A DNA stretch of 20,795 bases from Zygnema cylindricum (taxonomy: Eukaryota > Streptophyta > Zygnematophyceae > Zygnematales > Zygnemataceae), in NCBI GenBank assembly GCA_037447655.1, contig JBBHKE010000616.1, forward strand, positions 1 to 20,795. Reading direction: 5' to 3'. Numbering within the stretch: position 1 is the stretch's first letter; every line of letters starts with the position of its first letter. The translations under genes and the position numbers were made by a program. Of this stretch, positions 3,034 to 20,300 are shown in pieces. The notes below the pieces were generated by a model that worked only from the letters and a program-made list of their open reading frames with translations, ran no database searches and had not been told where the DNA came from.

Positions 3034-3207
3034 CGATTTAGTTCAGCAGAAAATATAGTTTCATGGCATGACAAAGACAGAGCGAGAAGAGAAGATGAAG
3101 ACAGAAGAATCTCCATCATTGCTATCAGGTTTGTCGGTGTCAATCTCACTAACACAAAAACTGTTACCATTCGAGAAAAAATAAACACAATGTTAACTGA
3201 CAGGTAA
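3034..3207 (+). CDS. Candidate basic-protein gene, exon 3 (terminal)
   Basis: From the acceptor CTTGCAAG (ends 3033) 57 codons are open in phase 0 to TAA at 3205-3207. The peptide contains SWHDKDRARREDEDRRISII and ends INTMLTDR. The intron before it would be only 52 bp, short for a plant-type intron, and is the weakest point of the model. An alternative donor, AG|GTAATG, sits at the stop codon, so the exon might instead splice onward. Confidence 0.3.
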   Translation, partial: RFSSAENIVSWHDKDRARREDEDRRISIIAIRFVGVNLTNTKTVTIREKINTMLTDR

Positions 3208-3823
3208 TGATTACGAATCAATCCACCTTTGTTAAAAAGATATGCAGATTATTGTCATAAATGTTACCGTCAATCAGAAAGACATCATGGGATCACGAGA
3301 CAAGTAAAATTGGGACAGAATATCAAAAACAGATAGACAGTAATAACCAGATACAGTGAATTCAGGTTAATATTTTTAGTCATATGCTGTATAAATGCAA
3401 CACAGTGAACAAAAAATTATACTGCAATAAAATCCAAAAACACGGCTCACACATACAAAATAATGAAATGCAGTACCCAGAAACTGAAAACTATCACCAA
3501 CTATAAAACTACTTCAGCCTACAAATGATTCAAAATTACATCACAAAACCAGCCAACGGAAATTTTATAATAATTGACTACGCCAATATTCAGCGCTGTA
3601 TTATTTTCACACCAGAATTCTGTTTCATAAAACAGAACAAATGCGTATTCCGGCAATAAAAAAAATAAAAAGACATAATAAATATTCAGAGGTCGAAATG
3701 TACAATTTGCTGCCATTTGCAGAATGTTACCACATCGGCCTCCAATCAGAGGGTCTAATGCCTACAAAACTTGTGAAAGCTACAATAAATAAAAAGATCA
3801 TTAAAACAGCTTTCCAGAAGAAC
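3208..3823. other. Convergent intergenic region
   Basis: AT-rich DNA between the 3' ends of the candidate + strand gene and the - strand plastid-protein gene. It presumably holds both 3' UTRs. Open frames here are short and have no splice or codon support. I see no repeat or RNA gene. Confidence 0.45.
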
Positions 3824-4015
3824 CTAAGACTTCTTTCCGCCTCCTAACCTTTCGCTAATGTCAAGATCGTCAGATTTGCCTTTTCGTCCAAATGCAACTT
3901 CATCCAGACTTTGTCCTTGTCTTTTGTACTTTCCACCGACCTTAACAAATTCAGGACATGGCCGGTACGCCTTAATAGGCCACCAGGAAAAGAGGGGAAT
4001 GGCTCCTAAGCCGCC
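3824..4015 (-). CDS. Plastid-targeted small protein, exon 3 (C-terminus)
   Basis: This exon begins after TGATGCAG (acceptor AG at 4017-4016) in phase 0, matching the phase-0 donor of exon 2, and ends at TAG (3826-3824). It encodes residues 125-187. The segment runs GGLGAIPLFSWWPIKAYRPC, then FVKVGGKYKRQGQSLDEVAF, then a lysine-rich tail ending LGGGKKS. The dense aromatic, Gly and Pro content looks conserved and globular rather than random, and the fourth Cys of the protein (C144) is in the RPCPEF motif. No membrane helix is evident. I do not recognise the family. A plastid-complex assembly or accessory factor is only a guess from targeting and size. Confidence 0.72.
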   Translation of the reverse strand, partial: GGLGAIPLFSWWPIKAYRPCPEFVKVGGKYKRQGQSLDEVAFGRKGKSDDLDISERLGGGKKS

Positions 4016-6400: not shown

Positions 6401-8800
6401 ACTACACACAACGGGAAGACCTACAATACATGACGCCCCACAACTATAACAAGCAAAAGTCCACACCCGCAAAAATCGTAGGTGTGGACTCATTCATTGT
6501 GGGAAGATCTTGGATGCCCCGTTTGTCATCCGCCATAGTGCTTAGCCGTAGAAGGGTCGTAGCCTGCGAAAAAAATCGTAAACAAACTTGCTAAAGAGTT
6601 GCAATTTTTTGTAGTAAATGGGACAAACTGATCAGCCAGGTCTCGATGACTATAATCTCTTTTTTTAAAGGCCGCTTGGTCTTAAGTTGCCAAACACGTA
6701 TGTAATCCCGCGCGCAAAAAATTGTGGGTCCCAGTCGGATCCGCGAAGAACGCATCACCGAAAGTCATCACGACACTGTGGAGGAAAGCATATTCAACCA
6801 CCTAATACCACTAGATTGACCCGAGGAGGTAACACATGAGAAAATTTTTCTTTCACAATGTAGCTTGATTCTGCATCAATTGCAAAAGCTGCACCGTAAA
6901 CCAAATCATGTATAACACCAAGATCTCCCCCATGTCAGCAGAGAAGTAAATGAAACAAGTAGGAGTCCACAGGTTAGTTGCAAACAGAAGGCGGGCGCCT
7001 AATAAACGAAGAGTGAGGCAAACCCAAACGAAAGCTGAGTAATTAATCACACGTTAAAGGATGTCTTAAAGAAATCGGTGTAGCTCGCAACGACGCACCC
7101 GCCCACGACCCACAACACAAGAGCACGCGATTGAACTGGATGTATACCGTTTAATAAGTTAAAAAATGCCATTGACCCACAACAAACAATCACACAAATG
7201 AGCCGAAGGTAGCGCGTCTAATAAGTTATGGAATTCAACAACTAGCCGTGTTGTAGACGAAAATTAGTATCGACAATAAAATATAGAAAAGGTGGAATCT
7301 GGTTTGACCCACAACACACGTGCACGCAGATGAGCATAAAGTAACGTGTCTAATAGGTTATGGAATTAAACAACCATTTGCGGTGTTGTAGTTGAAAGTT
7401 ATTTTTTACACTAAAATATAGAAAAGAGTGGCATCAGGCGACAAATTTGCACACGTCAAGAGAAGAGTTTCATAAAAAAGAAACACGTTTTTCTCCCCTA
7501 GAGAGACAACCTTTGCCAAAATATAGATATCATCCACGATAAAATGAGACGTGATGGTAACTGCCACTAGAGCCTAACTATCTAAATATGCTATCGGGGC
7601 AAATGTAGCCATAAGCATCAAACCTAAACCGTCATTAAAATTTTGGAGGTTAACTTTTTCATACGCAAACGAGCCCTCTAGCCGATGAAAACTTCCATGA
7701 CCAACATGTTGTGGAACACATTAAAAGTTTATCATCAAAGTTTTTAAGAGAAGACAAATATGGGGCAGTTGGTGGTAAAGTTTAAGAGATATAGAGAAGA
7801 TTTTGAGCAAAATATTATGTGAGGGTTGCAAGTGTCGACTAAGATTGAGAGAGCTTAGAAAGGTCATCATGATGTGAGAGGTCCTCTAACAAAGCATCAG
7901 TAATAACTTCATTTGCTAAAGGTTGGGCTCCGATAAGAGAACCAAAAGGTTTAGTACCATTCGTTTGGACACGATTTTAAAACTCATAGGGATGAGGGAA
8001 TCACAATGTTAACCTTTTGATCACCAGGCCATACCCTAAATGGGATACTTGATCAACCGGTTGTACATAGTTTCTCTGCAAAATGGTTAAAGTTAGAAAG
8101 GACCTGGACTGAAGGACCCTCAATATGTATATCATCCGCGATTGGAGGGAATAAACAACCAAAAACAAGAATAATATAGACTGTAAAAGCTTAAAAGTGG
8201 GTCAATGTAAAAAAAGGTGCCCCTAAACTAACGCTTTGGCGAGTGCTAGTCCCAAACTTGAAGGTGGAAGCATCACCAAAAAAACAACAAAGATGAGAGA
8301 TCAAGGAGTTGAGGCGAGAATAAAATGCACAAAACAAAGGAAAACTTGGGTTATTGGCGATGGAGCATGTCTTAATTGGCAAAAGATATTATTACGGTGC
8401 CATGTGTTGAAGTCTTTGGCAACATCCAGTTGAACGTCAAACCAATCCGGATGGAGGTATAAAAGAGCATGGAGGAATATGAACAAATGTCTCACAACTC
8501 CTCTTGTTAGCAACGCCAAACTGGTGTGGTGAAAAATAGTAATGTAAATCTCGTTGAAGTCGAATGCACATTGACCGAGCAACTAAGCGGTAGGAGACTT
8601 TGCTGAAAGCGATTAGACGAATTCACCTAGCATGCTCAAAAACTGGTACGAGGCGTGTCGCAAAGAGAAGAGGCATAAATATGGCGAGGAACATGTCTTC
8701 GAGCCATCTCATTAGCCAATTTAAAAGGAAGATTAAAACTTTAATAATGGGTTTTCATGAAAATTGCGGAGGCCTGTTCCGAAGTGTTAAAACGTTGTCT
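6400..8800 (-). mobile_element. Decayed non-LTR-like retroelement with reverse transcriptase (longer copy)
   Basis: On the minus strand, pieces of one RT polyprotein appear in order but in changing frames. RLIAFSKVSYRLVARSMC and FSPHQFGVANKRSCETFVH (about 8640-8480) are fingers motifs of this RT type. VQLDVAKDFN (about 8440) is motif A with its catalytic Asp. TKPFGSLIGA (about 7950) is a worn QGDPLG-type motif B. FIVDDIYILA (7543-7514) is motif C, the FVDD variant of YxDD. After a repeat-bearing stretch come GLPHSSF (about 7020), a worn C-HGGD motif near 6930, SHVLPPRVNLVVLGG and TFGDAFFADPT (about 6730). The last two correspond to SHIFLSRRIDIALLDGG and TFGDVVLANPT of the copy at 1060-2290, so both belong to one family. 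Many frameshifts and stops make it a dead element. Boundaries are approximate. Confidence 0.78.
7107..7442. repeat. Tandem repeat, unit about 130 bp, 2.5 copies
   Basis: Three units start with GACCCACAAC at 7107, 7174 and 7306. The second and third share GTCTAATA(A/G)GTTATGGAATT and AAAATATAGAAAAG at matching places. The first unit is shortened to 67 bp. The array lies inside the decayed retroelement, between the FVDD motif and the C-terminal region, so it arose by duplication within the dead element or was part of it. Confidence 0.65.
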
Positions 8801-10181: not shown

Positions 10182-10191
10182 NNNNNNNNNN
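10182..10191. other. Assembly gap (10 N)
   Basis: Ten undetermined bases lie at the end of a CT-rich run (10135-10181), next to an (AC)n(AT)n microsatellite. The true size is unknown. It falls 95 bp beyond the last visible exon of the ABC-F gene, exactly where the rest of NBD2 is missing. Confidence 0.98.
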
Positions 10192-10285: not shown

Positions 10286-10376
10286 AACTGTGAACAGCGT
10301 CTCCGGTCAACCCGAGAGCTCCTAAAGCAGATCGAGCTCTCTCATCCGTAACCGTCGGATCTTTTTCCCGGGCAAT
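10286..10376 (-). CDS. ABC-F gene, exon 9 (NBD2 helical region)
   Basis: This exon starts after TTCTCCAG (AG at 10378-10377) in phase 0 and reads [20 protein letters not shown] followed by [10 protein letters not shown], residues 548-577. In ABC-F proteins this D-P-x-x-x-D-x-x-A-R-x-x-L-G-x-L-G-L-x-G pattern directly precedes the LSGGE signature of the second nucleotide-binding domain. I place the donor at T|GTAATT (exon ends 10286); CACA|GTTGTA at 10289 is an alternative. A higher GC content than the surrounding introns supports coding. The next exon (signature, Walker B, H-loop) is not seen before the gap or in the gene-free sequence beyond it. Confidence 0.75.
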
Positions 10377-13300
10377 CTGGAGAATAATAAAGCAAATTTT
10401 AAAACTAGACAATTTTTTTTGATAGTGAAGATAAGAACCTATTATCTTTATTAATTACAGATGACATTCTGAACACAAAGACACCAGATAATTCATGTCC
10501 TCAAAGATGTAAGATGAAAACTGATTTTATTTCCATATTTCAATATCGATTTGAAAGATATAGAGATCTTATTTGAATATAGAGTTTTCCATCAATACTG
10601 TGTCAACATTAAGGTGATGTAATATCGGCCCCTCAAACTCATTTTTCTCCTTGAGCATCTGTATTATATATATATATATACACACACGTACATACTGAAA
10701 AAGTATCTGGAATTTTAGGTTTATACCTGCAATACACATTCTAAACCAGAAATATCTTGTGGGAGATCCTGAGCAAGATCTTGTGTGAAAACTCCCAATT
10801 GGACTCCCATTCCTTCCTCTCTCTCTCCCCCCTGTAAGGCTCCTCGACCAGACAAGGCTCGCAAAAGTGTCGATTTTCCACACCCATTGGGCCCCAGAAT
10901 CATCTGTTTATCCGAATATAAAAGGGGAATAAAGGAAAAAAAAAGGGAAAAAAAAGGGAAAAAGCAAGAAAAAGAGACAAGAAAAGATAAGAAAAGAAAA
11001 AAGAGGAAACAAAAAACGTGACTCAGAGTACAACACAAAGAAATTAAAAAGAGAAAAATTAGATAGAGTGTTACTGAATCGCTTCCAAAATAGTGTGACT
11101 TTCAAAAATTCCTTCATCGAAATCGAAATTTTTCGATAGCTTACAGACTCAAATAATATCAAAACAACATCAAAATTTAAACAGAAAAAAAAAAAGCCGT
11201 AACAGAGGAAAAAAAAACAATAACCACTAAATTGGGCGATTATACTGGTGAAGACCAAAAAACTTCCAAATTTGATGGTTAAAAGTACCAATGTCTGATG
11301 GTTAATAAGTACCAAAATTTGATTGTTTGTAAGAACAAAAAATTTGATGGTTATAAGTACCAAAATTTGATTGTTTTCAAGTACCAATTTTTTTTTTTTT
11401 TAAGTACCAAAAAATTGATGGTTTTGCTTCCTACCAGTCGCATTCCGGTTTCGAGTTTAAGATCGACATTTTGGAGAAGAGGAGGAGAGCCCTCCCATCC
11501 TATCACTCCCTTCCGAAGAATCAGAACCTCTCTCGCGCAGACAGGTGTCGGTGGGAGCTTCACTACGGCGATTCGACGGTCCCCTCCCGAGTTCGAATTT
11601 ACTGCACATAAGACAAAACAGTACCGGTGAACTGGCGTTTTCTGCACATACTGACAATTCTTCCTTCCTCCCCGCCCCCTCCCTCCTTCCCTCTCTCCCT
11701 TCCTCCCTCTCTCCCTTCCTCCCTCTCTCCCTTCCTCCCTCTCTCTCTCTCCCTCCCTCTGTCTGTCTTTCTCCCTCCGTCACCCTCTCACTCTGTCTCT
11801 CTCTCTCTCTCTCCGCCCGTTTTTAGAGCCGTTATCTGTTTGAAAGATGAAAAAACAGAACCAGTTATAATTTGAAAGAGACTTTAACTTAAGCATTCGA
11901 TCTTCTCTTCCTTTTTCCATACATTTAATTCATCCACCGCTTTAAAATCCAGAAAATCTCTTTATCACATTCATAAAACACATCACCTTTTTCAGGAAGA
12001 GCTGTGGAATAGAATTTTAAAACCCAAAAAAAATCTCTTCATTTCATTAATAAACACACTTCTCAAGTACCTTTTTCCAAGACCTGTAGGCATAGAAATT
12101 TAAAAACAATAATTGTCTCTTTATTTCATTCATAAACACACTAATCCAAAAATATCTCTTAACTTCAATCATAAAGAGAAAAGGCTCTTTTATTTCATTC
12201 CCTCTTTTTTTCATTATTTCTTCTCGAGTATCTTTTCCAAGAACATCTGTGGGTATAGAAGTTTAAAACCCAAAAAAATCTCTTTATTTCATTCGTAAAG
12301 AGAAAAAGCTCTTTATTTTATTCTCTTCGTTTCTTCATTTCTTCTTTTCTTTTTTTCTTTATTTCTTTATTTCTTCTTTCATACCTTGTTGGGGATGACC
12401 GGTGGGCATAGAAGTTTAAAATCCAAATAAATCTCTTTATTCCATTCCTAAAGAGAAAAAGGTATTTACTTCATTCTCTTCATTTCTTCATTTCTTCTTT
12501 TCTTCTTTTCTTTATTTCTTTATTTCTTCTTTCATACCTTTTTCGGGAAGACCGGTGGGCATAGACGCTTGGAGTTTAGCAATTGCTTTTTTTTTTGAAT
12601 TTGCCGCTGCGGCTTTTGTCGCTTTTGCTCCGAACCGATCGACGAATCCTTGTAATTTGTCAATTTCTGATTGCTTCGATTGAATTTCTTGGGCAAGTGC
12701 CAATTGTCGGGCTTCTCTTTCTCGCAAAAATTTAGTGTAATTTCCAACATATGTGTGCAATTGCCCATTACGAATCTATCGAAAAAAAAAAATGAATATA
12801 AGCAAAAGTTCAAATGAATATCCAGTCAAAATCGATCACATCGACACGAAAGCTTTGTGAATTTTGATTTTCAGAAACGAATCAAATACGTAAAAAAAAA
12901 AAAAAAAAAAAAACATGAACACGTACACACTTATTCAACAGCCTAACGGTGAAGTATATGTATTTGGAGTTGAAATAGACGCATAAATATTTTATTTTAG
13001 AAACTTACAAAAAAAAATCTTAGGAGTGAAACAGTTTATGATAGACAAACAATCATCCTTCAAGATTCAGAAAAAGACATGTACCAAGAACCGCATAAAT
13101 TTCAGACAAAAAATGTATCTTCACTTGCTTTACATCTAAAAAAAACATGTTCTTTATTCGGGCTTTGCTATGATGAATTTGTCATAAGGGGAAAAGAAGT
13201 ACAGGGACCTAATTTAAGGTGAACCCATAAAAGACAAAATTGCTGAAAAAAGCACAGTGAGAACTAGTAAACCCAGAAAAGACAAAATAACTGACCTCAG

Positions 13301-16300
13301 CAATACGGTCACATGTGCGATCGAGTAACGCCTCATCGTGACTAACAATAATGACAGCTCCAGGAACTTTCCTTAAATATTCCGCGAGCCAAGCCTGTAT
13401 TCCATTGCCCAAGAAAAAAGAACAAAACTGTTAACGTCTCAAATCTTCTTTCCCTTTTCCCTTTTCATTTTTGACTTTTCGCTTTTGCTCTCCCCTTTCG
13501 ATTTTGACACATATACCAAAAACGCTATTCTAAATGATTCGCTAAAACCTTCTTATAATCCCAATTCGCATACCGACAATTTTATTTTTTTCCTCAAAAA
13601 GACATATAGTCATTTGAACCTCCTCCTTTCAAGGCGGTTTCAGACTAAAGCTTCTGTCGCTGTCTCTTATTATCTCCCTCGCTGTAACAAGGTGAATCAA
13701 AAATAATTTTCTTTCAATCGTTCATTAACAAAATCAGCAAGGCAAGAAGGCAAATTGGAATACAAAATCCCAATTTCCTCGACCTTCAACCTAATTTCAT
13801 TTGGACGGGTATGCTTTTCAAATTGCGAGACCAATGAGATACAACACCCAAGGACCCGAATTCATTAAGACCGTCGATGGGGAAACATTCTCGGCCGTCG
13901 ATGAAAGAATATCGGTTAACAAGAAAGTTTCAAGAAGTTTTAGTGTGAGTGAAACCCTCTTGCGATATTTCTGTTAACAGATTTGAAAAGGTTTAAAAAG
14001 ATTTGCACGAGACAACAACAGAAGGTTTTTTTGTAAGACCAATTTTCACTCTCATTTGAACCTCCATTCAGGCAATGATGACCATCAGCTGTGGATGACA
14101 AAAATCGGGCAACTGGAAGCCACAATGTAGAACGATTTTTGAAAATTTTCCAATTACCCATTTCCTCCTTTCCCAACTTGCCTCCCAATTTCCCAATTTC
14201 CCAATTTCCTGATCTCCCGATTTCACAATTTCCCGACTTCATTTCCCATTTCCCAATTTCCCCATTTTCCCATTTTCCCTTTTCAAAATTTCCCAATTTC
14301 TCTCCCAATTCCCATTTTCCAACTTTCCCAATCTCCCTCCCATTTTCCCAGCTTCCCAATTTCCCATTCTCACCTTTGCTTTGCCCCATTTTTCCCCATT
14401 TCCCACTTTCTCACTTTCCTATTTTCCCACTTTCCCCATTTTTCCAGTTCCCTCTCTCACCTTTGCTTTGCTGTCCAAATGGTTAGTCGGTTCGTCCAAT
14501 AACATGAGAGACCTCCCGGACCGGTCCATCTGCCCTAATAGAAGTCTTGCGAGAGCGATTCTCATTTGCCATCCTCCGGAAAATTCCGAGCACAATCTCG
14601 TCCAATCAGATTGCTGGAATCCTAACCCATTCAGGACTCTGAAGCAAAACCGCAGAAAATAAATAAATATTAAGATAAAAGCGATACTAAAGATCATAAA
14701 GATTTTAAAGATCATAAAGATCTCGTCCAATGTCTAGTACTATTGATCATTCTTCCACTGTAACAGTGATGAACAGTGTAATTAGAACCTAATCTGTCTA
14801 TCTTTTCTTACCCAGCGATCATCTCATCTGCTTTATATTCCTCTAGTATCATTAATTTTGAACACATTAATACTGATGAGTCTTTCCCTCGAACAGCGAC
14901 GAACAGTGATGGACAGTGTAATTGGAACCTAATCCGCCTATCTTTTCTTCCATGGCAATCCTCTTGTCTGCTTTATATCCATCTAGTATCATTAATTCTA
15001 AACTCACATCAAGACTGGTAATTCTTTCACTCCACTAGCAATCAACAATGTAATAAGGACCTGATATGTTTTCTTACCAGCGATCACCTCATCTGCTTTG
15101 CATCTGCCTAGTATCATTGATTCTACTTTCACATTAATACTGATAATTCTTTCACAAAAGTGTATTTAGAAGCTTATCTATTTTTTCTTACCCGGCGATC
15201 ATCTCGTCTGCTTCCAAAGCTTCTAAAACTGATAAATCTTAATAAAATAAAAATAACGACAAATTCTTAATAAAATCGTGATGCAGATAGTTCTTTCACT
15301 CTAACAGCAATTAATAGTGAAATAAGAACCTAATACGTTCATCTTTTCTTACCCGGCGATCATCTCGTCTGCCTTATATCCGTCCGCGACTTCAAAAGCT
15401 TCTTGAGCTGCTGCAAGTTTTGCTATGGCTCCTTCTTCCCCTCTATCGACAGCAAGTTCCGCTTTTCGAAGCTCCTCGTCAGCCTCGTTAATCGCATCCA
15501 TTCGAGATCTCGCCTCATCCCAAACTGTTTGTTTGGAACCCGAAACAGCTCTGTTTTTTTCAAAAACAATAACATTATATTTCAGCTTATTCAATGTAAT
15601 TGACATAAAACTATGGGCTCATTCGAGATCTCGCCTCATCCTAAACTCTTTGGAACCAGAAATAGCTCTGTTTTTTACAAATGAAAAACATTATCTTTAA
15701 GCTTGTGTCTGGCAACATAACCATTAAATTTCAACTTATTCAATAGGATCGAGACAAAACTATGGGACTAAAAGAAAAGAATCGAATTAGTGCAACACCA
15801 TTACTGTCTTCCAGAGTCGTTATAAAAGAACAACATGCCAGAAAATGCATAACTATATGCTAAGCAAAAAAAAAAAAAGTATGAATGATTTTTTCCCTGG
15901 CCCATGTTCTCAAAGCAGAGAATAAAAAACATGAAACACAAAACAACAGCCTTCCCCACATTATTGAAGATACAATTGCCCCAAGACATACTCCTATTCT
16001 ATACATCCTATTATGTTTCATAAAGACAAAATCTAAAGCAAATATGTATAGACAGGATTAAAAATTCAAAAATTGGAATGAAATCTCACGTTTGCTCCAA
16101 ATAACCTAATTTTGTCCCAAACGATACCACCATTCGACCCGAATCAAACGGTTGGTTTCCGGTAATTGCACGTAATAATGTCGATTTTCCACACCCATTT
16201 ACTCCAACTAAACCGGCTCTCTCTCCCGGCATAAGACGCCAGGCAGCTCCTTCAATAAGATCTCGAGAACCGGCACTCAATGTGACTCCTTCCATTACAA

Positions 16301-18547
16301 ACACCTGGAAAAACAAAAAATGGTTCTTTTTTTTTTTTCAAACTATATAATTTCCTGCTACCAAGAGTTTTAAAGCTACATAAACTTATTCCATTACAAA
16401 CACCTGAAAAAAAGGGTTTGGGTAAAAAAAATGGGTTCGCTTGTTTGGTTATTTTCAAACCTCCAGAAATTTCCTGATTACAGACAGTATTTAGGTTAAA
16501 CAAACCCCTTCTATTACAAACACCGGAAACAACAAAATGGGTTTTTGGTTTCTTGTATGGTTTTTTTGGCAAACCTCTAAAATTTCCTGTTCACTGCGTG
16601 TTTTTGAGTTCAATGAACTCGTTACATTTTTGGAGCTTTTCAGGCTTTGATTTTTGTCAAACCACTGGAATTTCCTGTTTACTGGGAGTTTTGGAGTTAA
16701 ATAAACTCCTCCTACTAAAAAGACCCCGGGGACATAGTGCAAAAACTGTACACTTGTGACAGGAAAGAATATTTGTCAATTTATGTTCAAACGCTTAGGG
16801 TTTTGGTTTTTTGTCAAACCTCTAGAATTTCCTATTCAACAAGAGTTTTTAAGTCAAATAAACTCCTTCCATTACAAACACCTCGGGAAACATAACTGTG
16901 AAAACCGTACACTTGTAACAAGACAGTTCTTTGTAGATTTATGGTCAAACTTGCTTGATCATAGGGCTTTCGGTTTTAAATTTCTGCCATTTGTCAATTT
17001 CAGAATTCCCGCCTATCAAGCACTTTAAGATAAATAAAACACACTTGTGTTTTTTGATTTTCGGATTCTCCAAAAGCTTTAACAGCACAGAGACATGTCG
17101 GTATCACTTTCTACATATTCCTATGTTACTAATGTCCAACGGATGACCAATACACTCTCTATTACTAGCAAGAACAATTTAAATAATAAGCTTTTTGTCA
17201 TTAGGGCAACTGTGAAAAAACCACATTATTACTTCTTGATTTGTTGATGAAGTTTCAGATTTCTCATTCAACTTCGAAAGTAAAAAGTATTGTCGACCAC
17301 ATTATTCAAGAAATAATGACATTATTCAATAAGTAATGTTATTGCTCAATAAGTAATACTTTCAGTTTGACAGTTTGGTGTTTTATTCCACATTAACAAG
17401 GGTGTGGGCCAAAGAAATCTCAAAACAAAGTAAGATAATTATAAAGTAAGAAAAAAGCTCCACAAATACCAAAAATAACTCATATATGACAACCCTATTT
17501 TATGTATGTAATTCTTTTGGACTGTATCCATTTAAGGTTAATAGCTGTCCAAATTCTACACATGAATTGGTGTGAACCAATGGTTACCAAAGAGCAAGAT
17601 GGAGTATTGTCCATAAAGGTTTTCACTTTGTACACTTTCTTTTTATAAAAGATACTTCTTTCCCATAAACAATATAGAAAAAAAAATCCACTGCCCATCA
17701 CTTTTAGTGTGTAAGAATTCATAGCATTAAAGCAGAATTAGTATCATAGTACTAGTAGAGTGCTACCACACACTAAGAAAAGAAAAAAAAGCACAAAAAA
17801 CAAAAAAAGAAACAAAAAAACACAATAAAACACTCTAGTGGATTGTTATCCTATTCCTTCAATAGAGTTGTTGACACTATTTTGTGATTTTTGGCCCAAA
17901 AAAATGTCGAAAAAATTAGTGTTATAAACACTAATAGTGATGGGCGATGTATAATGGACTTATGATTATAATTTGAGAAACTATAAGAGTTATGTGTGAA
18001 AACTTGAATTTTCAGTCATTAGACAGATATTAAATAGGGTTAAAAAATGGCTTTTGGTTTTTTAGGGTTTTTTAACTTATTAGGGCCATTTTGGTTATGG
18101 GTCTTGGTGATAATAATTCAAATAAATTATCGTATCTTGCTGCTTTTAAAGGAAATGAATTTACACATGACTCTAACTTAAAATTAATTTTAATTTTCTT
18201 TAAAGGCATTAAATAAAGGTTTTCTGGCTCACCACATGAATTAAATGGATCGAAAACCGGAGACGTATTCACTGTAATTACTGTAAACATATAACATAAT
18301 ATAATATGCAATATTACGTAATAATATATATCATAGAGGAAAAAGTTTGGTTAAAAAAAAATCACAGGCACAATTCAAGGGCCATATGACCACTTTTATA
18401 CTTCTTGTGATTTTCTGTAAAAAAAAAAAAAAAGGGCAGAGGTTTTATGTGAAAAAATAGTAAAGTTCTCACAAAGTAGAGTTCGCTCGAGAGGAGGAGA
18501 GGGAGGGAAGGGGAGGGGGGGGGGGGGAGGGGGGGGAGGGGAGGGGG

Positions 18548-18582
<35 letters not shown>

Positions 18583-19281
18583 GGGGGGGGGGGAGGGCGA
18601 GAGCGGGAGAGAGAGAGGGAGGGAGAGAGGGAGGAAGGAAGGGAGAGGTGGAGAAGAGGGAGGGGGGAAGGTGAGGGGGAGGGGAGGGGAGGGGAGGGGG
18701 ACGGGGAGAAGAGGGGAGGGGAGGGGAGGGGAGGGGAGGGGGACGGGGAGAAAAGGGGAGGGGAGGGGGAGGGGAGGGGGAGGGGGGAGGGCGAGAGCGG
18801 GAGAGAGAGAGGGAGGGAGAGAGGGAGGAAGGAAGGGAGAGGTGGAGAAAATGCGAGTTGAGTCAGAAATCAGTTCAAAAAATTAAACAAAACATGGAGT
18901 GAAAATTCTCACAGCTCCAGCTGTATCTCCCTCTGGAGGCCACGTGTTTGCACCCAAAGCTGTCCTTTTCGCTCCCAATCCATTTGTACTTTCCCCAGAC
19001 ACGTGTGACGTGACAGGCCTCCGTTCCACAACACCACCTGTTCCTTGTTTGCAAACTGTACGGCTAAAGACCGGCCTGCTATTGGCTAAGCAGCAGTTTT
19101 CTGCAGTATTTGACAAAAAAACAGATAATCGGAAACTAGAAAAAAAAAAAGGGCTCCTTTCAACACCTTTTACGAACATAAGTTGACTTTGGAGACTCTT
19201 CTCTGATGAAGTACAAGGTACAGTTTGCTTGTGGTAGAACCGTACGGATGCATCCACGTGGCAACATGGTAGAGTAGTCAT
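10286..19281 (-). CDS. ABC-F ATPase gene, nine visible exons, 3' end missing
   Basis: Joined in order (19281-18913, 16304-16090, 15550-15353, 14638-14461, 13394-13296, 12775-12538, 11601-11435, 10903-10727, 10376-10286) the exons give 577 codons plus one base, with every splice phase satisfied and all introns GT-AG. The product has an N-terminal extension, NBD1 complete (Walker A 157-165, FSGGWQ 280-285, Walker B 303-310, H339), a tRNA-facing linker (354-433) and NBD2 up to the residues before its signature. There are no membrane segments. It resembles bacterial and algal ABC-F translation factors more than plant ABCF5. It is probably a plastid-ribosome factor. Some 120-150 residues with the NBD2 signature, Walker B and H-loop are absent from the window. 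Confidence 0.85.
10656..10692. repeat. AT/AC microsatellite in ABC-F intron 8
   Basis: (AT)n followed by ACACACAC. An inverse arrangement, CACACACATATATATA, stands at 10204-10226 on the far side of exon 9, so the exon is flanked by inverted microsatellites that could pair in the transcript. Confidence 0.7.
10727..10903 (-). CDS. ABC-F gene, exon 8 (NBD2 Walker A and Q-loop)
   Basis: Acceptor AAACAG| (AG at 10905-10904) and donor TGCAG|GTATAA bound 59 codons in phase 0, residues 489-547. The second Walker A motif GPNGCGKST (492-500) is intact. The Q-loop is GVFTQDLAQ (Q529), followed by [13 protein letters not shown]. Exon 7 ends LETGMRL and this exon begins MILGPNG, the usual uninterrupted strand-loop of an ABC-F NBD2, which confirms the join. 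With exon 2 it shows the two-NBD, membrane-free design of ABC-F ATPases, which act on the ribosomal E site rather than as transporters. Confidence 0.9.
10904..11434 (-). other. ABC-F intron 7 with donor-edge repeat array
   Basis: A 531-bp intron from CTG|GTAGGA to CAG|ATGATT. The 175 bases next to the donor (about 11260-11435) consist of units of about 30-36 bp on the minus strand. Each unit is of the type TTTGGTACTTATAACCATCA, varying in the AACCATCA/AACAATCA part. The genuine donor edge, TGGTAGGAAGCAAAACCATC, has the form of one unit. Several units keep TTGGTACTT, a possible GT donor. The remainder is A-rich on the + strand. Confidence 0.65.
11435..11601 (-). CDS. ABC-F gene, exon 7 (inter-domain end, NBD2 start)
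   Basis: Acceptor TTATGTGCAG| (AG at 11603-11602) is followed by two bases completing Val433 and 55 codons, residues 434-488, to CTG|GTAGGA. It encodes [20 protein letters not shown], then [20 protein letters not shown] and [13 protein letters not shown]. This is the start of NBD2: a beta strand, the A-loop region with Trp in VIGWEG, and the strand before Walker A. The phase-1 acceptor fits the phase-1 donor of exon 6. CT-rich intron sequence (11650-11815 on the + strand) begins shortly upstream. Confidence 0.85.
11602..12537 (-). other. ABC-F intron 6 with donor-edge repeat array
   Basis: A 936-bp intron. The half next to exon 6 (about 11980-12530) is a tandem array of units of about 155 bp, each containing a copy of the last 26 or so exon bases plus the donor. 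Copies are near 12381-12411, 12228-12258, 12068-12096 and 11984-12012; the genuine edge is 12534-12564. The interior of the units is TTTATTTCATTC-rich. The other half holds CCTTCCTCCCTCTCTC-type simple repeats at 11655-11815. Confidence 0.75.
11655..11815. repeat. CT-rich simple repeat
   Basis: CCCTTCCTCCCTCTCT is repeated about four times from 11690, degrading into (CT)n. Open frames across it on both strands are low-complexity artefacts. It lies in ABC-F intron 6. Confidence 0.9.
12538..12775 (-). CDS. ABC-F gene, exon 6 (inter-domain linker)
   Basis: From TCGATAG| (AG at 12777-12776) 79 codons and one base run to AAAAG|GTATGA, residues 354-432. It opens [20 protein letters not shown], the Y-x-G-N-Y motif that ends NBD1 in ABC-F proteins. 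It continues with a charged two-helix linker including [20 protein letters not shown] and [19 protein letters not shown]. The [12 protein letters not shown]-type signature is that of the bacterial/algal P-site-tRNA interaction linker; land-plant ABCF5-type proteins, as I recall them, differ here. The exon ends SMPTGLPEK, the part copied repeatedly in intron 6. Confidence 0.9.
12776..13295 (-). other. ABC-F intron 5
   Basis: A 520-bp intron, donor GAG|GTCAGT. A 36-bp segment at 13267-13302 spanning the donor is repeated once at 13219-13254 with about eight differences (period 48). A run of about 20 A on the + strand lies near 12893-12913. Confidence 0.6.
13296..13394 (-). CDS. ABC-F gene, exon 5 (NBD1 H-loop)
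   Basis: Thirty-three codons in phase 0, residues 321-353, between GGAATACAG| and GCTGAG|GTCAGT. The sequence [20 protein letters not shown] carries the switch histidine H339 of NBD1 and continues [12 protein letters not shown]. It joins seamlessly to the Walker B exon (LDSKAK|AWLAEYL) and to exon 6 (DRIAE|IRNGQL), both standard ABC-F sequences. Confidence 0.9.
13395..14460 (-). other. ABC-F intron 4
   Basis: A 1066-bp intron. Next to the donor it is a long degenerate array of CCCAATTTCC-like units (about 14150-14455 on the + strand). Within it, CTCACCTTTGCTTTG at 14369-14383 exactly repeats the genuine exon 4 edge at 14457-14471, including the GT. The rest (13400-14150) is ordinary AT-rich intron with no second gene seen. 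Confidence 0.7.
14461..14638 (-). CDS. ABC-F gene, exon 4 (NBD1 signature and Walker B)
   Basis: The exon starts after TTGCTTCAG (one base completes Gly261) and ends AAAG|GTGAGA in phase 0, residues 262-320. It holds [16 protein letters not shown], the ABC signature [16 protein letters not shown] (280-295; F/LSGGWxMR is typical of ABC-F NBD1) and Walker B with [13 protein letters not shown] (catalytic E310). About eight extra residues (GQMDRSGR) separate the signature helix from Walker B, where most family members have a shorter loop. Confidence 0.92.
14639..15352 (-). other. ABC-F intron 3 with donor-edge repeat array
   Basis: A 714-bp intron. From about 14735 to the donor at 15352 it consists of units of 112-160 bp, each carrying a copy of the exon 3 end and donor (near 14801-14840, 14941-14980, 15068-15105 and 15181-15222). 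Between them a shared filler of the type TTCTTTCACTCTAACAGC and AACCTAATC recurs. Confidence 0.8.
15353..15550 (-). CDS. ABC-F gene, exon 3 (NBD1 arm/helical region)
   Basis: One base completes Thr195, then 65 codons and two bases run to GCCGG|GTAAGA, residues 196-260. It encodes [20 protein letters not shown] followed by a long charged helix, with [20 protein letters not shown] and [13 protein letters not shown]. In ABC-F proteins the coiled arm between the Q-loop and the signature has this S-G-S-x-x-T-V-W-D-E-x-x-S/R beginning. Splice phases (2 and 2) match both neighbours. Both ends of this exon are duplicated in the adjoining introns. Confidence 0.9.
15551..16089 (-). other. ABC-F intron 2 with acceptor-edge duplication
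   Basis: A 539-bp intron with donor AAC|GTGAGA and acceptor ACAG|AGCTG. A segment of about 120 bp spanning the acceptor (15499-15619) is repeated directly at 15620-15770. The rest is AT-rich with no further feature. Confidence 0.75.
16090..16304 (-). CDS. ABC-F gene, exon 2 (NBD1 Walker A and Q-loop)
   Basis: Acceptor TTTTTCCAG| (AG at 16306-16305) opens phase 0 at [20 protein letters not shown]. Walker [10 protein letters not shown] is at residues 157-165 and the Q-loop GYLEQ at 190-194. The exon closes at CAAAC|GTGAGA in phase 2, matched by exon 3. [10 protein letters not shown] is the first beta strand of NBD1, so anything upstream is an N-terminal extension. ABC-F ATPases bind the ribosome next to the E site and influence peptidyl-tRNA and stalled ribosomes. 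With the N-terminal extension and the algal-type linker, a plastid ribosome is the likely target, which is inference. Confidence 0.92.
16305..17030 (-). repeat. Acceptor-edge repeat array in ABC-F intron 1
   Basis: Upstream of the exon 2 acceptor, about six diverged units of 95-160 bp follow in tandem. On the + strand the anchor (C)CATTACAAACACC recurs near 16394, 16514 and 16873 and in worn form near 16620 and 16714; the genuine edge is 16291-16306. A second anchor, AATTTCCTG followed by AGTTTT and AAATAAACTCC, recurs with the same spacing. The unit near 16873 still encodes [10 protein letters not shown] behind an AG. Confidence 0.8.
17031..18480 (-). other. Remaining ABC-F intron 1, no gene seen
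   Basis: Apart from a small repeat of CATTATTCAA-type words at 17300-17360 and a worn family-2 element, this AT-rich sequence shows no exon-like frame with good splice sites. Confidence 0.45.
17760..17950. mobile_element. Short TIR element, family 2 (worn copy 3)
   Basis: GTTGTTGACACTATTTTGTG, then GATTTTTGGCCCAAAA, then a right end of the type AACACTAATAGTGATGGGCG correspond in order to copy 1 at 2590-2675. The left end is not recognisable, so the start is approximate. Confidence 0.45.
18485..18855. repeat. G-rich tract with an uninterrupted G31 run
   Basis: Almost pure purine on the + strand, including 31 consecutive G at 18551-18581 and many GGGGAGGGG units. A 62-bp segment at 18594-18655 is repeated exactly at 18788-18849, 194 bp apart. 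The run would form G-quadruplexes on the + strand. It lies in ABC-F intron 1, where the transcript would be C/T-rich. A sequencing or assembly artefact in the homopolymer cannot be excluded. Confidence 0.9.
18913..19281 (-). CDS. ABC-F gene, exon 1 (probable N-terminal extension)
   Basis: An ATG at 19281 (context TTACCATGA) opens 123 codons to GGAGCT|GTGAGA, phase 0, matching the phase-0 acceptor of exon 2: ...GDTAGA|VFVMEGV. That is a sensible linker-to-strand join for an ABC-F NBD1. The N-terminus is poor in acidic residues for the first stretch, with [10 protein letters not shown] and [13 protein letters not shown], compatible with an organelle presequence, though not a clear-cut transit peptide. 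The GC content is above that of the flanks. A TATATATAAAG box lies 82 bases upstream. Caveats: the intron would be 2.6 kb, and homology cannot be judged by eye, so another first exon is possible. Confidence 0.52.
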
Positions 19282-19511: not shown

Positions 19512-19550
19512 AACAATTGTACTTGCTGAGGTGAACTGTACTACAGTAAT

Positions 19551-19771
19551 ACACCGTGTATCGCTATTAGTGTTAATAATTTTTTCGCCCGCTTAAAACA
19601 CCTTTTCTCCGTACACACTTGTAAGATTTGCATTTTGAGACCGCCAAACAGAAGCTGAAAATCTTAACTTTCAATCGCCACCGTCAGATCCAGAATACGA
19701 CAAATGTGTACGGAGAAAAAATGTGTTAAGTGGCCAAAAAAACATTAACACTAATAGCGATTAGCGGTGTA
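19551..19771. mobile_element. Foldback MITE, family 1 (copy c)
   Basis: The left arm ACACCGTGTATCGCTATTAG, then CGCTTAAAACACCTTTTCTC and CGTACACACTTGT, is mirrored by the right arm ACAAATGTGTACGGAGAAAA, then GTGTTAAGTGGC and CTAATAGCGATTAGCGGTGT. The centre is GAGACCGCCAAACAGAAGC and CAATCGCCACCGTCAGATCC. It is about 220 bp with arms of about 70 bp or more and no coding capacity. It lies just upstream of the ABC-F promoter. Confidence 0.82.
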
Positions 19772-19773
19772 CA

Positions 19774-19995
19774 GTACACCGCGAATCGTTATTAGCGTCA
19801 AGGTTTTTTTCGCCACTTAAAACATCTTTTCTCCGTTCACACTTGTCCGATTTTCGAATTGAGACCGCCAATCGGAAGCTGAGAATACTAGCTTTCAATC
19901 GCGACCGTCAGATCCAAAATAAGACAAATGTGTACGGAGAAAAAATGTTTTAAGTGGCGAAAAAGCCTTGTCGCTAATAATGATTCGCGGTGTAC
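19774..19995. mobile_element. Foldback MITE, family 1 (copy d)
   Basis: It directly follows copy c. It starts GTACACCGCGAATCGTTATT and ends with the inverse AATGATTCGCGGTGTAC. Inner arms ACTTAAAACATCTTTTCTCC and GGAGAAAAAATGTTTTAAGT pair almost perfectly. The junction with copy c is the palindrome GCGGTGTACAGTACACCGC (19764-19782). Confidence 0.85.
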
Positions 19996-20048
19996 GTACA
20001 GCGCGCCAGAAAACAGGCCGAAGATTTTGAAATTCCTTCCTTTGATAC

Positions 20049-20300
20049 TACACCGTGAATCGTTATTAGCCTGCGTACGCTATATCGGCACCCCAAAATT
20101 TGGAGATTGATACCTTAAATATAATAAATTACACTATTTAAGGACGTGAACCATATTCTGCCACGTCGCCTGGCACTAAATTGGAATGAATGATGCTAAT
20201 TTTTTCTTTACACTAATAATTTTTATACGCTAAAAACGATTCGCGGTGTACAGTACACCGCCAATCGCTATTAGCGTAGAAGTTTCTTTAGCGTTCATGA
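20049..20300. repeat. Solitary family-1 MITE ends
   Basis: CACCGTGAATCGTTATTAGC at about 20051-20070 is a lone left end. At 20243-20261 two ends meet again as GCGGTGTACAGTACACCGC with flanking GATTCGCGG / CCGCCAATCGCTATTAGCGT and no element body on either side. These look like excision or recombination remnants. Confidence 0.55.

Follow-up and report, generated by a model that had tools for sequence, protein, structure and literature searches.

Introns of an ABC-F ATPase gene in Zygnema cylindricum carry tandem, diverged copies of their own splice junctions, and such arrays recur in other genes of this alga and outside genes. We attribute them, with a probability of roughly two in three, to ordinary local tandem duplication of units that are mostly 60-167 bp long, tolerated since splicing removes the spare copy; a process aimed at junctions is not needed on this account. 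It is backed by the arrays themselves, by the locus specificity of their units in the sequence sampled, and by their presence both in other genes and outside genes. It is backed also by exon interiors, which have no copies, and by a paralogue of eEF3 in which the same introns are without arrays.

The gene lies on the minus strand at 10296..19281 of the window, which is the whole stretch of 20,795 nt analyzed (1-20795), and nine exons and eight GT-AG introns have been placed in it. The assembly searched comprises 352.8 Mb in 2,689 contigs; the genome of Zygnema cf. cylindricum SAG 698-1a_XF is given in the consulted part of its description as 359.8 Mb with 73.3% repeats (PMC11096116). The spliced model and the homologous protein P0001 place exons 1-5 at 19281-18913, 16304-16090, 15550-15353, 14638-14461, and 13394-13296, and exons 6-9 at 12775-12538, 11601-11435, 10903-10727, and 10376-10296. 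The product has a match to the Pfam domain ABC_tran. P0001, a spliced protein of 776 aa, is 97% identical over the 451-aa query made from exons 2-9 and 63% identical in exon 1. All eight junctions fit P0001, which has no extra exon sequence at any of them; in agreement with this spliced protein, the outermost site of each array is probably the one in use. We take its source tag, lgn, to denote reads assembled from a related species. The next relatives of the protein are from the moss Ceratodon, the liverwort Riccia, and Closterium, along with two further proteins that, by their names, we take to be from Spirogloea. The visible exons cover P0001 to about residue 562. Residues 563-776 found only matches of 31-40% identity in the assembly search, on other ABC contigs and up to residue 636; the C-terminal third is thus without a match comparable to this gene, whose assembled sequence is therefore incomplete. 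An N gap lies at 10182-10191 of the window.

By self-BLAST, introns 1 and 2 have diverged tandem copies at their acceptor edge, introns 3 and 6 have them at the donor edge, and introns 4 and 7 contain repeats in the donor half. These were evaluated by a shuffle test, in which the 24-nt exon edge, and also the combined junction of 24+24 nt, was compared with each intron shuffled 100 times with its dinucleotides preserved. The exon edge is copied beyond the level of all 100 shuffles at five of the 16 edges, namely, the acceptors of introns 1 and 2 and the donors of introns 3, 4, and 6, the excess at the intron 4 donor being narrow (22 vs. a shuffle maximum of 20). With the combined junction, the intron 5 donor exceeds all shuffles, and the intron 7 donor and the intron 6 acceptor reach p=0.01. 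With the more stringent requirement of z>4.5 in 50 shuffles, a junction copy is found in six of the eight introns and the exon edge is copied at four of the 16 edges. Intron 8 (10377..10726, minus strand) has no junction copy in either the 100-shuffle or the stricter test.

The arrays, all given here for the minus strand, differ in extent and in the amount of exon sequence they contain. The acceptor array of intron 1 (16285..16950) includes, besides the real acceptor (16305/16304), diverged copies in which the start of exon 2 is represented by about 20 nt; it is seen by self-BLAST, shuffle test, and alignment, the last with 18 of 20 exon and 35 of 39 intron bases identical. The same three approaches identify the acceptor array of intron 2 (15499..15766), where a copy carries 52 nt of the start of exon 3 (44/52 exon and 31/38 intron bases identical). 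The donor array of intron 3 (14749..15384) consists by eye of about five copies, including the real donor at 15353/15352, with an exon part of 32 nt (27/32 exon and 35/43 intron bases identical). One of its decoys translates as YKADEMIAG, the same as the real exon end. Several copies of a 153-bp unit with 33 nt of exon make up the donor array of intron 6 (11941..12570; 28/33 exon and 44/45 intron bases identical), and the donor-side array of intron 4 (14144..14471) is degenerate and purine-rich on the minus strand. The repeats of introns 5 and 7 are mainly on the intron side and are weaker than those of the other five introns. In intron 5, a weak donor-side repeat at approximately 13219..13296 involves intron sequence only (24/28), and in intron 7, a donor-side array (11268..11441) has a 24-bp period, 6.7 copies, and a marginal resemblance to the donor edge (p=0.01, score 19). 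An earlier, sequence-only reading had described copies in seven of the eight introns, each with an exon end, at the acceptor edge in introns 1 and 2 and at the donor edge in introns 3-7. The sides are borne out by self-BLAST, shuffles, and alignment, and the diverged tandem nature of the copies by self-comparison and alignments; exon sequence is found in five of the introns, amounting to only 11 nt in intron 4, and introns 5 and 7 do not share it to any main degree. It is also the case, as judged partly by eye, that many decoys keep their GT or AG, as had been claimed.

Similar arrays occur elsewhere in the genome. The sample covers 289 kb including the window, its stretches having been chosen through searches for the ABC and chaperonin families, and some of its contigs are homologous pairs or overlap slightly. 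Models of the chaperonin genes come from aligning reference proteins to the DNA with splicing allowed, and the exons of the ABC loci are predictions of a purpose-made small gene finder. Junction-spanning copies are present in CCT1, CCT2, CCT5, one copy of eEF3, and, with predicted exons, four ABC loci. Alignment locates them in one CCT5 intron (L029 161-1941), two CCT1 introns (L034 153-536 and 5611-6089), and the CCT2 intron i6 (L035 4896-6180), and the decoy in the first of the CCT1 introns retains 36 of 40 exon bases. Cpn60 (L037) and the acceptor before the first CCT2 exon seen probably carry such copies also, both acceptors being putative. Units with both the exon and the intron of one junction are found at five junctions of the window, two of CCT1, CCT2 i6, CCT5, two of eEF3 copy A, and four of the ABC loci. 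There are 43 arrays in the 289 kb, and the smallest spacing is 60-167 bp in 36 of them; made of diverged tandem copies whose lengths run from tens of bp to >100 bp, the arrays in introns qualify as minisatellites.

Direct repeats are found away from junctions as well. One lies upstream of the first exon at 19550..20292 (no strand assigned), with copies about 225 bp apart and 83% identity in the longest pair, and another lies outside the modelled gene at 7172..7438 (no strand assigned; spacing 132 bp, 78.5% identical). The rate at which probes find a local copy is 43/727 in the ABC loci and 10/179 in the first 10 kb of the window; it is 26/93 at 10.3-16.3 kb, 11/33 in intron 1, and 12/27 at 18.9-20.8 kb. 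Duplications of all kinds are therefore frequent in the stretch that holds the window gene. The segment at 18.9-20.8 kb is mostly upstream of the first ABC-F exon. The gene is an outlier, with six of eight introns affected vs. seven of 55 chaperonin introns, and it was picked for this very feature. Of the two eEF3 copies, which share five intron positions, copy A carries two junction arrays, with repeats in a further two introns, and copy B gave no self-match. Arrays therefore come and go. Two introns of copy A measure 213 and 242 bp when the extra copies are subtracted. The ABC transporter locus L011 (C1303) has no array. The homologous contig pairs L016/L028 and L023/L024, otherwise uninformative as to copy number, yielded one 97-nt insertion that repeats a 29-bp unit.

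How often junctions are involved was assessed at two levels. In the first, 48-nt probes were placed on junctions, intron interiors, and exon interiors, and a local copy was sought for each; introns flanked by an exon of <38% identity or <9 aa, and introns <90 bp long, were left out. In nine chaperonin genes with 55 homology-modelled introns, copies exist for 7/110 junction probes and 47/547 intron-interior probes, and for none of the 96 exon-interior probes from the same nine genes. An earlier round with 44 introns gave 5/88 for junctions, 35/473 for intron interiors, and 0/62 for exon interiors. The corresponding junction and intron-interior counts are 6/16 vs. 31/94 in the ABC-F gene, 2/10 vs. 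7/19 in eEF3 copy A, and 0/10 vs. 0/16 in copy B. The Mantel-Haenszel odds ratio over the chaperonins, the window, and eEF3 copy A is 0.79, and by these counts, copying affects a junction at about the same rate as any position within an intron. Short degenerate repeats are scored by the probe test as well, and they may mask a preference of long units.

At the second level, whole BLAST-level arrays overlapping gene spans were compared with random placement on present intron lengths. Arrays crossing a junction number six of 10 in the chaperonins, against 2.24 expected (two of the six, at the first acceptor of L035 and in L037, are on putative acceptors, and exon 536-623 of L034 was added by hand), two of two in eEF3 (1.15 expected), four of eight in the ABC loci (1.73), and four of five in the window (1.38). 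Pooled without the window, 12 of 20 arrays cross vs. 5.1 expected (P 0.0007); array counts leave out the second copies L024 and L028 and one ABC array that overlaps an exon too far, and the main count omits the minus-strand gene of L009/L010, which has two crossing arrays. When arrays are detected in introns only, at a score of 60, seven of 11 abut a junction vs. 3.9 expected (P 0.026; window 2/3 vs. 0.9), and the counts are 7/12 vs. 4.0 at a score of 50 and 5/9 vs. 3.5 at a score of 80. Restriction to introns with both ends verified gives 3/6 vs. 1.5 in the chaperonins, 2/2 vs. 1.6 in eEF3, and 4/4 vs. 1.5 in the window. The excess may in part be a detection effect, because selection holds the exonic part of one copy. 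By simple arithmetic, a unit of 115 bp in an intron assumed to have been about 270 bp long at the time of duplication leads to an expected crossing share of about 60%, as observed. The sequence-only reading had seen a process anchored at junctions. In the 289-kb sample, overlap with junctions is no greater than expected at the level of probes and is greater than expected, by about twofold, at that of whole arrays; on this proposal the two tests disagree.

The exon part of a unit is 11-55 nt by the shorter estimates, which mix BLAST limits and alignments, and up to 88 nt by looser alignment, with spacings mostly of 80-160 bp. BLAST and alignment differ at the first CCT2 acceptor (23 vs. 88), at CCT2 i6 (49 vs. 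60), and in L025 (43 vs. 65). Of the 17 crossing arrays, all have an exon part below half of the unit when the shorter estimates are taken, and 14 do with the looser alignments.

The array excess of about twofold (12/20 and, with intron-only detection, 7/11), together with the restriction of the exon part to 11-55 nt, is what would be expected if duplication were linked to the splice junction, either through DNA breaks coupled to transcription or splicing or through pre-mRNA intermediates that are copied back, with junctions preferred. We consider this link unlikely, since the probes show no enrichment at junctions, duplications are present also outside modelled genes, and arrays are lacking from copy B of eEF3 and from the majority of the 55 chaperonin introns. 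It is similarly doubtful that junctions are true hot spots, at which transcription- or splicing-coupled duplication of 60-165-bp units takes in some tens of exon bases, and introns grow from their own edges genome-wide. Should the twofold excess survive once old intron lengths are allowed for, a coupling of mutation to splicing or transcription would be indicated. Should it not, splicing is still seen to shelter duplications that reach into exon edges.

Ordinary duplication sheltered by splicing, the explanation we prefer, could work as follows. A segment of mostly 60-167 bp would duplicate in tandem at many places in the genome. Where the unit straddles a donor, the resulting order would be exon edge, intron start, exon edge, intron start; the outer donor would be used, and the second exon edge would become intron. 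A unit straddling an acceptor would give the mirror image. The transcript would be unchanged and the intron lengthened, and the event could recur, which would lead to arrays at junctions. Tolerance would follow from continued use of the outermost splice site, with the decoy and the spare edge of the exon being spliced out. A duplication inside an exon would, in contrast, change the protein and be removed by selection. The tolerated units would thus be those wholly within an intron or those astride a junction that reach into the exon with their smaller part. With extensive exon context, a decoy may compete too well and hence be harmful, which could account for the exon part being less than half of the unit. 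Junctions would often be struck because the unit was about as long as the intron then was. Neutral tolerance, shorter introns at the time, use of the outermost site, and the chemistry of duplication, whether slippage or break repair, are the elements of this scheme that we infer. In these arrays, the spliceosome is naturally faced with a choice between near-identical splice sites at distances of about 80-160 nt, and the genome is one in which intron growth by junction-crossing duplication can be counted.

That the decoy sites are kept by selection, for example, because they buffer or regulate splicing, is far less probable than a link to the junction. The best-matching decoy has an intact GT or AG at 13 of the 15 junctions that could be judged by eye, of 20 aligned, a count biased toward intact sites since only the best-matching decoy per junction was judged. 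At about 82% identity, an intact fraction of about 0.67 is expected by arithmetic. Other decoys of introns 1, 3, and 6 have, by eye, lost the dinucleotide, and paralogous introns manage without decoys. Selection for decoys is not separable from chance and was set aside.

A spreading element that carries the units, an introner or a MITE, has even less in its favor. Introner elements alter intron content genome-wide through a sequence common to many loci. The alga resembles these systems in that intron content is changed over the genome; it differs in that the units are locus-specific in the 289-kb sample, where similar sequence in many unrelated introns was not found. The units of the seven window introns match only the window, the other 268 kb being matched by a single 33-nt stretch, no unit matches another window intron, and the units include the gene's own coding sequence. 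The claims that the unit sequence differs from intron to intron and that no single element has spread therefore hold within the 289 kb sampled, and an introner or transposon origin is rejected, even though the consulted part of the genome description reports 11.6% MITE for Zygnema cf. cylindricum (PMC11096116). Assembly error is the least credible of the explanations and is also rejected: the N gap and the missing match to the C-terminal third of the homologue are suggestive of it, whereas the longest copy pairs differ by about 5-35% and several genes on several contigs are alike.

The nearest known kind that our literature search brought up, which is no proof that a closer one is absent, is the potato RdRp gene PGSC0003DMG402000361. 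In the portion of the report that we draw on, a tandem duplication that crosses an intron-exon boundary gave rise to a new intron, and a further 83-bp duplication lies within intron 1 (Ma, Lan and Niu 2016, PMC4974935). This is a case of the same kind, so the initial view that the algal arrays have no described equivalent does not stand. The two share a direct tandem unit that is part intron and part exon. As far as the potato case is described there, they differ in outcome, a new intron and altered exon structure in potato vs. a spare copy inside an existing intron with an apparently unchanged mRNA in the alga, and in recurrence, the algal duplications being found in several genes and as arrays over the genome. 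Comparison with P0001, which has no extra exon sequence at the eight junctions, identified no new intron resulting from the algal duplications.

The model of Rogers and Hellsten, as outlined in the same source, explains intron gain by duplication of an exon segment that holds AGGT (PMC4974935). Tandem duplication and rival duplicated splice sites are common to that model and the alga. The algal units differ from those of the model as outlined: they are mainly intronic, with a minor exon part rather than an exonic AGGT-holding unit, they lie astride an existing junction, and they create no new intron. The arrays are thus not simple AGGT duplications, as had been supposed from the start. In fission yeast, according to the same partial account, a 24-bp exonic AGGT segment has undergone multiple tandem duplication with an intron across the duplicates (PMC4974935). 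The likeness to the alga lies in splice-site-holding repeats arrayed in an intron; the unit described for yeast is exonic and concerns two genes, whereas the algal units are intron-rich and occur in several unrelated genes.

The first exon of eEF3 copy A (stretches L009/L010, from contig G000:C290 of the same assembly, at about 140,660) contains a single in-frame TGA, downstream of which the frame stays open through the 921 codons modelled. The frame of eEF3 copy B (contig C230, stretch L019) is open. Copies A and B are 83% and 79% identical, respectively, to the homologue P0122. The predicted gene neighbouring copy A, on the minus strand of L009/L010, has an intron (3086-3996 in the coordinates of the merged 19.8-kb sequence) that carries both a donor copy and an acceptor copy, with spacings of 587 and 191, respectively.

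The last ABC-F exon seen in the window lies near a gap of ten Ns at 10182-10191. A search of the assembly with residues 563-776 of the spliced homologue P0001, its C-terminal third, gave no match resembling the ABC-F gene of the window. Intron 1 of this gene holds a G-rich tract of the GGGAGG type, about 350 bp long (18493-18839). Elsewhere in the window, overlapping long open frames of 150-190 aa each are present on the minus strand at 1061-2300, and are perhaps the remnant of a transposable element.

On contig G000:C598, equal-scoring chaperonin exon matches lie at 198757-198981 and 204124-204348, at a distance of 5.4 kb, as a larger tandem duplication would leave them. Equal or near-equal matches were also found on paired contigs of the assembly (G000:C706/C2615, C638/C1059, C2488/C315 and C1878/C2437), which are perhaps haplotypes or homeologues left separate in the assembly.
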